33,312 bases of DNA, from the NCBI GenBank assembly GCA_947311645.1, contig CAMZKZ010000042.1, forward strand, positions 1 to 33,312, given 5' to 3'. A program made the translations under genes and the position numbers. The stretch's first letter is position 1; each line of letters starts with the position of its first letter. Of the stretch, positions 8,425 through 16,277 are shown piece by piece. A model generated the notes under the pieces. The model was not told the origin of the DNA and made no database searches. It was given only the letters and a program-made list of their open reading frames with translations. This stretch comes from an uncultured Candidatus Altimarinota bacterium. GTDB taxonomy: Bacteria > Patescibacteriota > Gracilibacteria > CAIRYL01.

Positions 8425-11400
8425 ATGCCGAACGCATTACAAAAAGATTTGTTTACTCAAAAACCTACAAAGGTTGTGAATGGGCGATACTTTTTTTCGG
8501 AAAGTGAAGATGCGGAATATCTTCCAAATCTTATTCAGGTTCAGCTTGATTCATATGATGATTTCTTGAAAAATGGAATTCATGAAATGCTTCAAGAGAT
8601 TTCTCCGTTACAAGATTTTTCTGGAAAAAAAGTAGAGGTTCACTTTTTAAAGCATTCTTTAGAGGAAGCAAAAATTGATCCAGAAACTGCTAAACGGGAT
8701 AATCTTTCATATGAAGCAAATCTAAAAGTAGAGGTAAAGCTTGTTAACAAAGAAACTGGTGAAATTAAGCAACAAGAAGTATTTCTTGGGGTTATGCCAT
8801 TGATGACAGAAAAAGGAACATTTATTATAAATGGTATTGAGAGAGTTGTTGTAAACCAGATTGTTCGTTCTCCAGGTGCATTTTTCTCTCGAGTGCAAGG
8901 AGTTCCAGGTGCATTTGCAACGAAAATTATTCCTCGTCGAGGAGTATGGCTTGAAATTGAATCGGATAAAAAAGGATTGCTGTATGCAAAAATAGATAGA
9001 AAACGAAAATTTCCTGCAACACAATTAATGCGTATTTTTGGGTATGAAACCGATGCAGACATTATTGAAGCATTTGGTGATATGCATGAAGCAGATAGAG
9101 AGGTGTTATTGCAAACACTGGAAAAAGATTCTGCAAAAACTGTAGCAGAAGCGTATCAGTCAATTTATCGGAAAATTCGACCAGGAGATATGGCAACTGC
9201 GGAAAATGCAAAATCTCTTGTGGATTCGATGTTTTTTGATTTTCGAAAATATGACTTAGGTCCTATTGCTCGATATAAATTAAATAAACGATTTAATCTG
9301 GATAAATCAGATACTCGAGAAAATAGAATTTTCCAAATTTCTGATTTTCTTCCAATTATGAAGGAGTTAATTCAATTAACTGCAAAAACTGGAGGACAGG
9401 TAGATGATATTGATCATTTGCAAAATCGACGAATTCGAAGTGTTGGGGAATTAGTAATGAATAAATTTCGAGTTGGGTTGATGAGAGTTGATCGAATTGC
9501 AAAAGATAGAATGACTGTTGTTGATCTTGAAGCAATTACAGCTGTACAAATTGTGAATTCACGACCTATTACAGCGGCAATGCGAGAATTTTTTGCAAGT
9601 TCTCAATTGTCTCAATTTATGGATCAAATTAATCCTTTGGCAGAACTTGCGCATAAACGGCGTATTTCTACAATGGGACCTGGAGGGCTTTCTCGAGAGC
9701 GTGCAGGGTTTGATGTGCGAGATGTGCATTCGTCTCACTTTGGACGAATTTGTCCTATTGCAACTCCAGAGGGGCCAAATATTGGACTTGTTCTGCATTT
9801 TGCATCGTATGCAAAAGTAAATGAGTATGGGTTTATTACTACACCTCTGCAGAAGGTTAAAAATGAACTTCCGGTATCAGGTGATATAGTAGGAAGAATA
9901 CTTGGAGAAGATATTGCTGGAGGAAAAATTGGAGATGTAATAACAGAAGCACTTGCAAAAAATATTGTTTCTTCAGGGAAAGATATAGTGCGGTTACAAT
10001 CATTTGTAGATGGTGATATTCATTATTTAGATGCAGCAGAAGAAGAGTCAATTATTGTTGGTCAGCTTGCTGGAAATGTAGATGATTATGGAAATGTAAT
10101 AGGAACAATGATTGCTGCTCGTGTAAAAGGAGAAGCATCGTTGGTTCCTGTAGAATCAATTACTCATTTTGATATTTCGTCAAAACAAATTGTTTCGGAA
10201 ACAACAGCACTTATCCCATTTCTAGAAAATGATGATAATACGCGAGCATCGATGGGGTCGAACATGCAACGGCAAGCGGTTCCATTAGTATCTCCTCATT
10301 CTCCAATTGTTGGAACTGGTTTAGAGGGAGAAGTGGCAAGGGCTGCAGGTACTGCAATTGTTGCAGATGAAGACGGAGAAATTACTGATGTTGATGCACG
10401 AGAACTTACTGTTCAGTATGCTTCTGGAAAAAGAAGAACATATGAACTTCCAAATTATGTGCGGTCAAATCAAACAACATGTTTTCATTTTTCTCCATCT
10501 GTTTCAAAAGGGGATAGCGTAAAAAAAGGACAAACACTTATAAATGGAGCATCTACAGAGAATGGAGAATTGGCTCTTGGTCAAAATCTTCTTGTGGCAT
10601 ATATGACATGGGAGGGGTATAATTACGAAGATGCCATTATTATATCGGATAAGGTAGCACAAAAAGGGTTTTATGATTCAATTCATATTGAGAACTTTTC
10701 TATTGATATTCGAGAAACAAAACTTGGAAATGAGCAAGTAACACGAGATATTCCAAATGTTGGAGATGCAAAACTTGCAAATCTTGATGATGAAGGGATT
10801 ATTCGAGTTGGTTCTTGGGTAAATGATGGAGATATTTTAGTTGGGAAAATCACTCCAAAAGGAGAGGTTGAACTTACTCCAGAAGAGCAATTACTGCAGT
10901 CTATTTTTGGGGAAAAAGCAAAAGATGTACGAGATTCGTCGCTTCGTCTTCCAGGGGGAGAAGGAGGAAAAGTTATTGATATTCAAGTGTTTACAAAAGA
11001 AAAAGGACACGATTTACATCAAGGTGTATTAAAACAAATTCGTGTATATGTTGCACAAACACGAAAAATTCAAGTAGGAGATAAAATGGCAGGACGACAT
11101 GGAAATAAAGGGGTTATTTCAAAAATTGTTCCTCGAGAAGATATGCCATTTTTAGCAGATGGAACACATGTAGATATTATTTTGAATCCATTAGGGGTTT
11201 CGTCTCGTATGAATATTGGGCAAATTTTAGAAACACATTTAGGGCTTGTTGGAAATAAGCTTGGTATACGATTTGCAACTCCAGTATTGAATGGTATTAC
11301 ATCGGAAGAAATTAAACAGTTTTTAAAAGATGCTGATTTACCAGAAGATGGGAAATCACAATTATTTGATGGGAAAACAGGGGATCCATTTCAATTTAAA

Positions 11401-11925
11401 ACAACAATGGGGGTTACTTATATGATTAAGTTGAATCATCTTGTTGAAGATAAACTTCATGCTCGTTCTGTTGGGCCATATTCTATTGTGACGCAACAAC
11501 CTCTTGGAGGGAAAGCACAGCAAGGGGGGCAACGGTTTGGAGAAATGGAGGTATGGGCATTGGAAGCATATTCTGCATCACATATTCTTCAGGAAATGCT
11601 TACGATTAAATCTGATGATGTAGTGGGTCGTTCAAAAGCATATGAATCGATTGTGAAGGGATTACCTCTTGGAAAACCTTCTATTCCAGAGTCATTTAAT
11701 GTACTTCTTCATGAATTACGAGGTCTTGGATTAGAGGTTGATTTAGCAAATGAAGAGGATAAACCTGTAGACTTAGCTCTTGATGAGTTGTATACAGATG
11801 AAGAATCAGGAATTCCAGAAGAAGATAAAGTTTCTGAGTTAAAAACATCTCTTCATGAAACAGATGCGGAGATTGACTCGGAAGTGCATGGAGAAATTCC
11901 ATCTGCACAAGAGGGAGAGGTATAA
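8425..11925 (+). CDS. rpoB: DNA-directed RNA polymerase subunit beta
   Basis: The 1166-residue β subunit, colinear with bacterial RpoB and without large lineage inserts. The rifampicin-pocket region (about residues 392-452) reads SQLSQFMDQINPLAELAHKR and then RISTMGPGGLSRERAGFDV, keeping the Asp, His and Ser that usually confer sensitivity. The nucleotide-binding and β'-contact blocks GDKMAGRHGNKGV and FGEMEVWALEAYSA are intact. After the usual end (ELRGLGLEVDL) there is an unusual acidic tail of about 60 residues. The ribosomal genes rplJL, commonly just upstream, are absent here; the operon starts from its own promoter. No ribosome-binding sequence precedes the ATG. Confidence 0.98.
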   Translation: MPNALQKDLFTQKPTKVVNGRYFFSESEDAEYLPNLIQVQLDSYDDFLKNGIHEMLQEISPLQDFSGKKVEVHFLKHSLEEAKIDPETAKRDNLSYEANLKVEVKLVNKETGEIKQQEVFLGVMPLMTEKGTFIINGIERVVVNQIVRSPGAFFSRVQGVPGAFATKIIPRRGVWLEIESDKKGLLYAKIDRKRKFPATQLMRIFGYETDADIIEAFGDMHEADREVLLQTLEKDSAKTVAEAYQSIYRKIRPGDMATAENAKSLVDSMFFDFRKYDLGPIARYKLNKRFNLDKSDTRENRIFQISDFLPIMKELIQLTAKTGGQVDDIDHLQNRRIRSVGELVMNKFRVGLMRVDRIAKDRMTVVDLEAITAVQIVNSRPITAAMREFFASSQLSQFMDQINPLAELAHKRRISTMGPGGLSRERAGFDVRDVHSSHFGRICPIATPEGPNIGLVLHFASYAKVNEYGFITTPLQKVKNELPVSGDIVGRILGEDIAGGKIGDVITEALAKNIVSSGKDIVRLQSFVDGDIHYLDAAEEESIIVGQLAGNVDDYGNVIGTMIAARVKGEASLVPVESITHFDISSKQIVSETTALIPFLENDDNTRASMGSNMQRQAVPLVSPHSPIVGTGLEGEVARAAGTAIVADEDGEITDVDARELTVQYASGKRRTYELPNYVRSNQTTCFHFSPSVSKGDSVKKGQTLINGASTENGELALGQNLLVAYMTWEGYNYEDAIIISDKVAQKGFYDSIHIENFSIDIRETKLGNEQVTRDIPNVGDAKLANLDDEGIIRVGSWVNDGDILVGKITPKGEVELTPEEQLLQSIFGEKAKDVRDSSLRLPGGEGGKVIDIQVFTKEKGHDLHQGVLKQIRVYVAQTRKIQVGDKMAGRHGNKGVISKIVPREDMPFLADGTHVDIILNPLGVSSRMNIGQILETHLGLVGNKLGIRFATPVLNGITSEEIKQFLKDADLPEDGKSQLFDGKTGDPFQFKTTMGVTYMIKLNHLVEDKLHARSVGPYSIVTQQPLGGKAQQGGQRFGEMEVWALEAYSASHILQEMLTIKSDDVVGRSKAYESIVKGLPLGKPSIPESFNVLLHELRGLGLEVDLANEEDKPVDLALDELYTDEESGIPEEDKVSELKTSLHETDAEIDSEVHGEIPSAQEGEV

Positions 11926-11966
11926 TGAAGAGATGAGCACTATAAAAACTGTATATAATTCGTATT

Positions 11967-12356
11967 ATGAAACCCTTTAAAACAGTTAATTCGGTTACAC
12001 TTCTTGGGAAAATTTCAAGAAGTCCAGATCGTAAAACTATTACATCGGGGAGAAAGCTTGCAGTGTTTTCTCTTCAAACACAAAATGATGATATGTATTC
12101 ATCGTCGGAATTTCATAATATTGTTGCATGGGATGAGCTATCGGATATAGCAGAGTCATGTACGGTATCAGATACTGTTTATATTGAAGGCTGTATTAAA
12201 ACACGAAATTTTATAAATAAGCACAATATAAAAATTTTTAAAACAGAAATAATTGCTCAAAAAATAATAGTACTTTCTTCGAATGAAAAAAAAGGATTTA
12301 CAGCAGAGGAAGAAAAAACTTTTTTTTCTGCTTCTAAAAAAGACTTTTATTTATAA
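11967..12356 (+). CDS. Single-stranded DNA-binding (SSB)-like OB-fold protein
   Basis: This 129-residue protein lies between rpoB and rpoC. SSB-family landmarks are present: NSVTLLGKISRSPDRKTI at the start, SGRKLAVFSLQTQ, EFHNIVAWDELSDIAE, DTVYIEGCIKTRNF and a KTEIIAQKIIVLSS strand. The C-terminus is short and ends in KKDFYL, lacking the acidic DDDIPF-type tip by which true SSB recruits repair proteins, so it is probably a paralogue and not the main replication SSB. A TATAAT hexamer 7 bases before the ATG could drive a leaderless transcript in addition to read-through from rpoB, whose stop is 41 bases upstream. Confidence 0.85.
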   Translation: MKPFKTVNSVTLLGKISRSPDRKTITSGRKLAVFSLQTQNDDMYSSSEFHNIVAWDELSDIAESCTVSDTVYIEGCIKTRNFINKHNIKIFKTEIIAQKIIVLSSNEKKGFTAEEEKTFFSASKKDFYL

Positions 12357-12407
12357 AAAAAATCTCAAAAAAATCTCAAAAAATATATTCTTAATAAAAA
12401 TTGTTGT

Positions 12408-15400
12408 ATGAAACAAATTGATAATGACTTTGCGTCAATTTCTTTGAAAATTGCGTCACCAGAATTGATTCATGAATGGTCTCATGGAGAAGTTACAAAA
12501 CCAGAAACTATTAATTATCGAACACAGCGTCCAGAGCTTGATGGATTGTTTTGTGAGAGAATTTTTGGTCCTTCAAAAAACTACGAATGTTATTGTGGTA
12601 AATATAAACGAATTCGGTATAAAGGAATTACATGTGAAAAATGTGGAGTTGAAGTAACGAAATCTATAGTTCGTCGAGAAAGAATGGGGCATATTGATTT
12701 ATGTGTTCCTGTTTCTCATACATGGTATGTTCGGTCTACTCCTTCACGGATTGGTATTGCTTTAGATTTACCTGTAAAAACACTTGAGCAAATTTTATAT
12801 TTTGCATCGTATATCATTACAAATGTTGATGAATCGGAACGAGAAAATGTAAAACTTGACTTGATGAATCAAGCAAAACAGGCAAAGAAAGATATTCAAA
12901 ATACATTTAAAAATGAAGAAGTTCGAGTGCAAGCAGAAATTCGAGATGGAAATCTTAATAATTCTGATTTAGAAAAATTACAATCAGATTTTGCAGATCG
13001 TTTAGAAGAGCTACAAGAAGCTATGAAACAGGCAGAAATAGAATTGGAAAAAGTTCAAGTACGATCGGTTATATCAGAAATTGAATACCGAAATTTAAGT
13101 ATGAAGTTTGGTCATATTTTTACAGCAGGAACAGGTGCAGAAGCTGTAAAAATCCTTTTAGAACAGGTTGATATTGATGCAGAGCTTGAATTGTTGCGAG
13201 AGCAACAACCTGCTGCGACAGGGCAAAAACAGGTAAAAATTATTCGAAATATTCAATTTTTTGAATCACTTAAAAAATCTGGTATTCGTCCAGAATGGAT
13301 GCTTATTACAACGCTTTCGGTAATTCCACCTGATTTACGGCCGATGGTGCAGTTAGATGGTGGGCGATTTGCAGCATCAGATTTAAATGATTTATATCGA
13401 AGAATTATTAACCGTAATAATCGATTAAAACGATTATTATCGATTGGAGCACCAGAAGTAATTTGTCGAAATGAAAAACGAATGCTTCAGGAAGCTGTTG
13501 ATACACTTTTAAATAATTCACCTCGATCTGGTCGAGTTGCCTTTGCGTCTGATAAAAGACAATTAAAATCTCTTTCAGATATGTTGAAAGGAAAACAAGG
13601 ACGATTTCGTCAAAATCTTTTAGGGAAACGAGTTGATTACTCTGGTCGATCTGTAATTGTTGTTGGTCCACAGTTAAAACTTCATCAATGTGGTATTCCA
13701 AAAAAAATGGGATTAAAATTATTTAAACCATTTGTAATTGGGGCATTAATTCAAAATGAATATACTCATAATGTAAAAGGAGCAGAAAAAATTATTGCTT
13801 CAAATGCAGAAATTGTATGGGATTTATTAGAAGAAATTATTTCTGATAAATATGTTTTATTAAATCGAGCACCAACTCTTCATAGATTAGGTATTCAAGC
13901 ATTTTCTCCAGTGTTAATTGAGGGACGAGCGATTCAAATTCATCCACTTGTGTGTGCTGCATATAATGCGGATTTTGATGGGGATCAAATGGCGGTTCAT
14001 CTTCCTTTATCTGAAGAAGCACAAAAAGAAGCAAAAGAATTGATGCTTGCATCTACAAATATTTTAAAATTATCAGCAGGAGATCCTATTATTACTCCGA
14101 GTCAAGATATGGTTCTTGGGTCATATTACATTACGACTATTCATGATAATAGAAAAGGTGAGGGAAATGTATATGGTTCGATGGAAGAAGCAAAATATGC
14201 ATATGATACAGGGCATTTAGATATGCAAGCACGAATTTCTCTTCGATTGAATGGTGAAATCATTGAAAATACTTCATATGGTAGAGCAGTATTTAATGCA
14301 ATTATTCCAGAAGAACTCGGATATAGAAATGAGATATTTAAAAATAAAACAATTCATAATCTTTTTACAGAAATTTTTGAAACAGTTTCTCCTGATCGAG
14401 TTGTAGAATTTGCGGATAATATTAAAGAATTAGGATTTAAATATTCAACAAAATCTGGGTTATCTATTGGTATGGATGATATGGTTGTTCCAGAAGAACG
14501 GCATGCAGTATTAGATACATCAACACAATTGCTAGAAAAAGTAACAGATGCGTATACAAAAGGTCTTCTTTCTGATGAAGAACGATATACTCATTCAATT
14601 AAAATTTGGGCTGATGCAAAAATTAAAATCTCAGATTCAATGGTTACAGAGTTTAAGAAAAATCCAGAAAATCATATTTATTATATGATTGACTCTGGAG
14701 CTCGAGGGAACTGGGGGCAAATTACTCAAATGTGTGGGATGAAAGGTTTGGTAGCAAATCCGGGAGGACGAACTATTGAGCTTCCTATTAAATCAAATTT
14801 AAAAGGAGGATTTTCTATTGTAGAGTACTTTATTGCAACCCATGGGGGACGAAAAGGGAAATCTGATACAGCCTTAAAAACAGCAGAAGCAGGGTACTTA
14901 ACTCGTCGTCTTGTAGATTCTGTTCAAGATACAATTATTAGAGAAGAAGATTGTGGAAATAACTATCCATATATTGTAACACGAGAAGATGCAAAATTAT
15001 TAGGAGTAACATTTGATCAACGGCTTCTTGGGCGACATCTTGTAGAAGATTTAGCAGATAATGATGGAGAACTTATAGGTGTGCGAAATCAAGAAATTGA
15101 TAGAGCAATGTTGAAAGTTATTAATGAAAAAGAAGTAAATACTGTTAAAATTCGAGCAATTCTTGACTGTACTGTAGAAAAAGGAGTGTGTCAAAAATGT
15201 TATGGTCGAGATTTAGGAGATGATAAACATGTGAAAATTGGTACACCAGTTGGAATTATTGCTGCACAATCAATTGGGGAACCAGGAACACAGCTTACTA
15301 TGCGAACATTCCATATGGGAGGGGTTGCTGATGCTGGAAATGATATTACGCAAGGTCTTTCGCGAGTAGAAGAATTATTTGAAGCACGAAATCCAAAAAC

Positions 15401-16277
15401 ACCTGCTATTTTGTCAAAAATTAATGGAAAAGTGCGATTTGAAAGAAATAATAAATCGGTTACTATTTACATTGAAGCACAAGAAAAAGGAGAGGATGTG
15501 TATCCTATTACTCCTCTTATGAAAATATTAGTTTCAGAAGGAGATGTAGTAAAATCTGGAAAAATTCTTGCGAAAGGAACAACTATTATTCGAGCAAATT
15601 ATCCAGGGACAATAGAAAAAGTTTCAGAAAATGAAATTATTGTAAAACATGATGAGAAAATTTCTGATCAATATGAATTTAATGGAAATGAAAACTTCTT
15701 AGTAGAAGATGGAGATTTTATACAATCGGGAGATCCTTTAATTTCTGGACATTTTAATCTTCGAGAATTATTACAACAAACAGATTTCGCAACGGTACAA
15801 CGATATATTACACGAGAAATTCAAGGAATTTATGCATCACAAGGGCAAACAATTCATGATAAACATATGGAGGTAATTGTGCGAGAAATGTTTTCTAGAG
15901 TACGAATTATTGATAAAGGGGAGTATTCTGATTTGGTAAATGGAGAACTTACAGATTATTATAAAGTTCTTCGATTTATTACAGATAATCCAGATAAGAA
16001 AGCTCCAGTATTTGAACGACAACTTCTTGGGCTTACACGAAGTGCTTTAACAACTGATTCATGGTTGTCTGCGGCATCGTTCCAAGAAACAATTCGAGTA
16101 TTGGTAGATGCATCTATTTCAGGGAAAAAAGATACATTACATGGTCTAAAAGAAAATGTAATTATTGGGAAATTAATTCCTGCGGGAGAAGTGTTTCGAA
16201 AAAAATATGAAAAAGAGAAACTAAAAAAAGCTGAAGTTCTTTCAAAGGCAGAAGATAGTGTTTCTGAAGATGTGTAA
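12408..16277 (+). CDS. rpoC: DNA-directed RNA polymerase subunit beta'
   Basis: The 1289-residue β' subunit. The N-terminal zinc site is C61, C63, C76 and C79 (CYCGKYKRIRYKGITCEKC). The clamp coiled coil follows, and the catalytic NADFDGD sits at residues 520-526, providing the three magnesium-binding aspartates. Bridge-helix and trigger-loop regions are recognisable: ATHGGRKGKSDTALKTAEAG and QSIGEPGTQLTMRTFHMGG. The second zinc site is CTVEKGVCQKCYGRDL with an earlier Cys (EEDCG). The gene starts 51 bases after the ssb-like gene, so it is probably in the same operon. A strong terminator lies 44 bases after the stop. Confidence 0.98.
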   Translation: MKQIDNDFASISLKIASPELIHEWSHGEVTKPETINYRTQRPELDGLFCERIFGPSKNYECYCGKYKRIRYKGITCEKCGVEVTKSIVRRERMGHIDLCVPVSHTWYVRSTPSRIGIALDLPVKTLEQILYFASYIITNVDESERENVKLDLMNQAKQAKKDIQNTFKNEEVRVQAEIRDGNLNNSDLEKLQSDFADRLEELQEAMKQAEIELEKVQVRSVISEIEYRNLSMKFGHIFTAGTGAEAVKILLEQVDIDAELELLREQQPAATGQKQVKIIRNIQFFESLKKSGIRPEWMLITTLSVIPPDLRPMVQLDGGRFAASDLNDLYRRIINRNNRLKRLLSIGAPEVICRNEKRMLQEAVDTLLNNSPRSGRVAFASDKRQLKSLSDMLKGKQGRFRQNLLGKRVDYSGRSVIVVGPQLKLHQCGIPKKMGLKLFKPFVIGALIQNEYTHNVKGAEKIIASNAEIVWDLLEEIISDKYVLLNRAPTLHRLGIQAFSPVLIEGRAIQIHPLVCAAYNADFDGDQMAVHLPLSEEAQKEAKELMLASTNILKLSAGDPIITPSQDMVLGSYYITTIHDNRKGEGNVYGSMEEAKYAYDTGHLDMQARISLRLNGEIIENTSYGRAVFNAIIPEELGYRNEIFKNKTIHNLFTEIFETVSPDRVVEFADNIKELGFKYSTKSGLSIGMDDMVVPEERHAVLDTSTQLLEKVTDAYTKGLLSDEERYTHSIKIWADAKIKISDSMVTEFKKNPENHIYYMIDSGARGNWGQITQMCGMKGLVANPGGRTIELPIKSNLKGGFSIVEYFIATHGGRKGKSDTALKTAEAGYLTRRLVDSVQDTIIREEDCGNNYPYIVTREDAKLLGVTFDQRLLGRHLVEDLADNDGELIGVRNQEIDRAMLKVINEKEVNTVKIRAILDCTVEKGVCQKCYGRDLGDDKHVKIGTPVGIIAAQSIGEPGTQLTMRTFHMGGVADAGNDITQGLSRVEELFEARNPKTPAILSKINGKVRFERNNKSVTIYIEAQEKGEDVYPITPLMKILVSEGDVVKSGKILAKGTTIIRANYPGTIEKVSENEIIVKHDEKISDQYEFNGNENFLVEDGDFIQSGDPLISGHFNLRELLQQTDFATVQRYITREIQGIYASQGQTIHDKHMEVIVREMFSRVRIIDKGEYSDLVNGELTDYYKVLRFITDNPDKKAPVFERQLLGLTRSALTTDSWLSAASFQETIRVLVDASISGKKDTLHGLKENVIIGKLIPAGEVFRKKYEKEKLKKAEVLSKAEDSVSEDV

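Follow-up and report, generated by a model that had tools for sequence, protein, structure and literature searches.

An SSB gene kept between rpoB and rpoC in Peregrinibacteria-like families of ultra-small bacteria

Introduction

Few bacterial genes stay side by side as persistently as rpoB and rpoC, which encode the beta and beta-prime subunits of RNA polymerase. In the genome of an uncultured Candidatus Altimarinota bacterium, a gene for a single-stranded DNA-binding protein (SSB) stands between them, which raises the question of how an SSB came to this address and what it does there. The window is the whole stretch of DNA that was analysed, 33,312 nucleotides; families are labelled f1, f2 and so on, and genomes G000 (that of the window), G001 and so on.

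Results

The rpoB-ssb-rpoC locus

The interval 11926-12407 runs exactly from the rpoB stop to the rpoC start and holds a single ORF. The features of the locus are as follows.

8425..11925, + strand: rpoB, RNA polymerase beta subunit, 1166 aa (TIGR02013, 1480 bits)
11926..11966, + strand: rpoB-ssb gap, 41 bases, with TATAAT at 11954-11959
11967..12356, + strand: ssb paralogue, 129 aa, single OB fold (Pfam PF00436, 63.4 bits; AlphaFold2 model)
12306..12353, + strand: ssb tail EEEKTFFSASKKDFYL, residues 114-129, acidic stretch retained, terminal Pro-Phe absent
12357..12407, + strand: ssb-rpoC gap, 51 bases, of which the 3' ~30 bases are conserved within the genus
12408..16277, + strand: rpoC, RNA polymerase beta-prime subunit, 1289 aa (TIGR02386, 1531 bits)

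ORF coordinates and profile matches confirm the original prediction that an SSB-like gene separates rpoB from rpoC, leaving gaps of 41 and 51 bases. The terminator predicted to be absent was indeed not seen, a scan of 11926-12407 giving no terminator-like site. No forward promoter-like site was scored in the same interval. The TATAAT, 7 bases 5' of the ATG, has the look of a leaderless promoter of the ssb's own; it gave no promoter-like score and is missing in three sister species (G002-G004), and because it is not conserved there it is probably a chance match. The AT-rich element before rpoC at 12378-12407 (tatattcttaataaaa then ttgtt) is conserved in four species of the window's genus. No Shine-Dalgarno-like sequence is visible 5' of most of these genes, including most of the rpoC upstream stretches.

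An OB-fold SSB under purifying selection

The ORF matches the SSB profiles Pfam PF00436 (63.4 bits, cut-off 26) and NCBIfam TIGR00621 (58 bits, cut-off 53.95), and the AlphaFold2 model (mean pLDDT 83, the OB core mostly >90 and the tail of low confidence) has OB strands at residues 10-24, 30-38, 48-55, 70-83 and 89-103; matches above cut-off and the modelled fold together bear out the predicted OB-fold SSB paralogue. All 50 of the Foldseek matches listed for this model are bacterial or mitochondrial SSBs, the closest solved structures among them being the SSBs of Salinibacter ruber (5odn) and Coxiella burnetii (3tqy).

The DNA-contact positions were numbered on the sequence of E. coli SSB. On this numbering, the W54, F60 and W88 positions are aromatic and His55 is invariant in 43/43 rpoB-linked SSBs, and the W40 position is kept in 37 of the 43. 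In the window's SSB the W40 position is deleted, as part of a loop lost in its genus, and F49, W55 and F82 occupy the other three stacking positions. The alignment suggests that the ssDNA-binding surface of the rpoB-linked SSB has been largely retained.

The window's genus evolves fast, with a branch of 2.15 in the SSB tree. The rpoB-linked ssb is under purifying selection, with dN/dS in this genus of 0.13-0.31, compared to 0.06-0.10 for rpoB and rpoC. These values and the intact frames in four species rule out a degenerate pseudogene, and a defence gene was dismissed after PADLOC gave no match.

A changed C-terminal tip

The prediction also held that the protein lacks the acidic tail, and this is correct only for the very end: the terminal (D/E)xPF tip is missing, while acid remains (EEEKTFF at residues 114-120, then SASKKDFYL). 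The chain ends in KKDFYL, the Pro-Phe tip of replicative SsbA (DDDIPF type) being absent, and the tails in G002, G003 and G004 are similar. A PF end was found in none of 43 rpoB-linked SSBs and in all 40 SSBs of the EDLPF, or replicative, type; of 42 complete rpoB-linked copies, 41 lack a terminal Phe and one has it, and it is present in 13/19 rpsF-linked ones. The rpoB-linked tips fall into types: IDxDLGL in f18, f21, f23, f26 and f27, DDxxF(D/N)P plus a few residues in f10, and an acidic run then FF (EEExFFxASKxDFY) in f1.

DDDIPF is the C-terminal hexapeptide that docks many SSB partners, and modelling and NMR with primase put the terminal Phe of SSB in a pocket and its carboxylate near an arginine (PMC5872125). 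Loss of the terminal Phe end should uncouple the rpoB-linked SSB from these partners. The clade-specific tips may dock another partner, and an SSB without the usual docking peptide may serve a function of its own in connection with transcription or growth. A less likely reading is a dedicated RNA polymerase factor, an SSB that would bind the polymerase, for example via the changed tail, and act at the bubble or at R-loops, a role that the original prediction raised as a possibility; tips conserved within clades, such as the IDxDLGL of five families, are in its favour, whereas their variation between clades is unlike a single conserved polymerase site.

In this class, the C termini of bS6, the rpsF product, are also acidic (L214-L243: GEDFNL, GDDLNI, DDPDITL, DADIDI) and resemble the SSB tips EDLPF and IDxDLGL.

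A separate SSB of the replicative type

The original prediction allowed that, if the genome had no other SSB, this would be the usual replication SSB, only at an odd address. The genome of the window (G000; 775 kb in 53 contigs, 87% complete) does have one other, full-length ssb (L001, 1126-1980 on contig C2), which encodes 284 aa with two OB folds and the C-terminus SDIKPEDLPF, so that the rpoB-linked SSB is not its sole SSB and, with this KPEDLPF-tailed protein present, the odd-address reading is refuted for the window. Two-OB matches occur as well in G001-G003, G005 and G006. The EDLPF lineage consists of a single-OB gene or, in f1, f2, f5, f10 and f12, a two-OB gene; two-OB-fold SSBs are also found in Thermus and Deinococcus.

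The odd-address reading draws on f10, where the linked SSB is the only SSB match in 5 of 15 genomes. Since the two-OB gene of f10 often lies <3 kb from a contig start, assembly gaps are likely and we judged the apparent sole SSB to be one; were these not gaps, the linked SSB would be the sole SSB in the five genomes. With two-OB genes in the genomes named above as well, we regard an ordinary replication SSB as very improbable.

Two-OB SSB genes often sit near a contig start. A third group comprises short SSBs without an acidic tip (L190, L194, L199, L201, L203, L204, L206 and L050), which cluster in the tree, excepting the f5 copies adjoining rpoB.

Distribution of the arrangement

The arrangement is real and conserved, and a survey of rpoB-rpoC spacing in related genomes shows it to be old and clade-wide. 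In 39 genomes a single contig carries rpoB-ssb-rpoC. These genomes represent 11 families (f1, f2, f4, f10, f12, f18, f20, f21, f23, f26 and f27), all of the class to which the window's genome belongs (Ca. Peregrinibacteria/Peribacteria and kin), a recurrence that excludes chance. In 80 genomes of the class we inspected the DNA preceding rpoC: 30 have the SSB between the two genes, 29 have rpoB and rpoC close with no SSB between (three of these, from f16, with a gene-sized gap) and 21 have no rpoB within a few kb upstream of rpoC; nine further genomes bring the total to 39. The window's family has the linked ssb in 7/7 genomes, the contig of G001 ending inside ssb, before rpoC.

Families f6, f8, f14, f16, f25, f28 and f29 have no ssb at the rpoB-rpoC junction, and at ~55 junctions from elsewhere in the phylum, outside this class, none was found. 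Of the 80 named SSB loci in the matches listed for GTDB genomes, five are rpoB-linked, all from Peregrinibacteria, Peribacteria or Patescibacteria records, and none of the 80 is an rpoB-linked ssb from another phylum. We found no published description of the order in the open papers searched.

In f5, rpoB and rpoC are not neighbours; in the single-contig genome G049, ~300 kb separate them. In the four f5 genomes inspected, the ssb still stands behind rpoB (4/4). This fits a transcriptional reading and a general growth-gene link alike. That the place is retained in 11 families, and behind rpoB in f5 despite rpoC being elsewhere, counts towards an RNA polymerase factor; the seven families without ssb at the junction count against one, and contact with the polymerase does not follow from gene order alone.

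Non-adjacent rpoB and rpoC, seen in f5 and f7, are unusual for bacteria. In f16, a gene for a membrane protein of 315 aa that looks like a sodium/calcium exchanger lies between rpoB and rpoC (L140, 550-1497, - strand), and the gaps in L142 and L143 are about as long; in G005 a 341-aa secreted SLH-like protein (L094, 2971-3996) lies between ssb and rpoC. Conserved proteins of f11, f13 and f15 contain in-frame TGA, so TGA seems to encode an amino acid in part of the class, though not in the window's family.

Descent and relocation

A fork of 99/84 in the SSB tree sets the EDLPF-tailed SSBs apart from the rpsF-linked plus rpoB-linked ones, the exception being a long-branched rpsF-linked row (L059) that falls between, just outside the fork. 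On this tree the class has two main SSB lineages, one EDLPF-tailed and the other comprising the rpsF-linked and rpoB-linked copies. Because it has 118 columns and the rpsF- and rpoB-linked copies are intermixed in it, the tree cannot fix the number of moves.

Sister families hold the same SSB lineage in the ribosomal operon, as rpsF-ssb, and f4 and f18 have both rpsF-linked and rpoB-linked copies. In f1, f2, f10 and f12, rpsF leads directly into rpsR (recognised by eye) with no ssb, and in G000 it is followed directly by an rpsR-like ORF, the rpsF-ssb-rpsR location being absent; since rpsF adjoins rpsR in the window's family, the ssb has left its classical place. The simplest account of these gene orders is that an rpsF-linked copy entered rpoB-rpoC, after which several families lost the one beside rpsF. 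In an RpoB tree built from 70 genomes, a 96/90 branch separates all carriers, together with f5, from f3, f15, f17 and f22. This fits one gain and several losses, the inner branches being weak.

With these losses and with other insertions in f16 and G005, the junction tolerates passengers, as would suit a neutral relocation, in which an ordinary useful second SSB came to lie in a strong operon and has been inherited with no functional tie to RNA polymerase. We consider this unlikely, given an arrangement common to 11 families and a consistent difference in tail between rpoB-linked and rpsF-linked copies.

Discussion

We consider the best explanation, with a probability of about 0.55, to be that the linked gene encodes an accessory ssDNA-binding protein of the rpsF-linked lineage whose supply is tied to RNA polymerase. 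An SSB of that lineage would have been inserted between rpoB and rpoC in an ancestor of the Peregrinibacteria-like families and retained since. It would be made from the rpoBC transcript, so that its amount would follow that of RNA polymerase, and would coat ssDNA exposed in active growth, such as the non-template strand, R-loops and the lagging strand; E. coli SSB has been reported to matter for R-loop homeostasis (PMC8318588). With a tail lacking the Pro-Phe end, it would coat ssDNA without recruiting the usual SSB partners, which would stay with the EDLPF-tailed SSB.

For this explanation we count the conservation of the junction, the lineage tree, the kept DNA-contact residues, the altered tail, dN/dS and the short gaps without a terminator. 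Against it we count the apparent single-SSB genomes of f10 and the fast evolution and W40 loss in the window's genus, and the change of tail could be simple drift. Because the same SSB lineage also stands beside rpsF in sister families, location alone does not single out transcription, a general growth-gene link explains the position as well, and the reading as an RNA polymerase factor is weakened too. The more specific proposal that a chromosomal SSB has become a dedicated RNA polymerase partner in one clade, its tail retuned from PF to, e.g., DLGL and its dose set by the rpoB-rpoC site, seems to us doubtful.

That a gene has been kept between rpoB and rpoC in at least 11 families of a branch of ultra-small bacteria (Peregrinibacteria) naturally hints that the coating of ssDNA and transcription are linked. 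The swapped tip peptides offer a simple handle for finding the partner of the linked SSB. If the link is one of dosage only, it still shows how genome-reduced bacteria divide the work of SSB between one copy that docks partners and one that does not.

In common with the bacterial SSB family, the window's SSB has the OB fold and the interface His, and it appears to keep most stacking aromatics; it differs in lacking the terminal Pro-Phe tip and the W40 loop and in sitting between rpoB and rpoC. The phage N4 SSB, the precedent for an RNA polymerase factor, activates E. coli sigma70 RNA polymerase and contacts the beta-prime C-terminus, and its activation needs C-terminal residues, not ssDNA binding (PMC4496689). 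As an SSB acting on RNA polymerase via its C-terminus, it is an analogy for how the linked SSB might work, and by that analogy direct binding to RNA polymerase is possible; N4SSB works at phage late promoters.

SsbB and SsbC of Firmicutes are paralogous SSBs beside a full-length one (PMC5945547). The window's SSB is like them in being an extra copy beside a full-length SSB. SsbB and SsbC are not known to be located in an RNA polymerase operon. SsbA of B. subtilis and S. aureus is encoded in rpsF-ssbA-rpsR (PMC8509808), and the window's SSB groups with the rpsF-linked SSB of its class, which keeps this classical rpsF place. Unlike SsbA, the window's SSB has moved to rpoB-rpoC, and the rpsF-linked type of the class is a second SSB, without the LPF tip.
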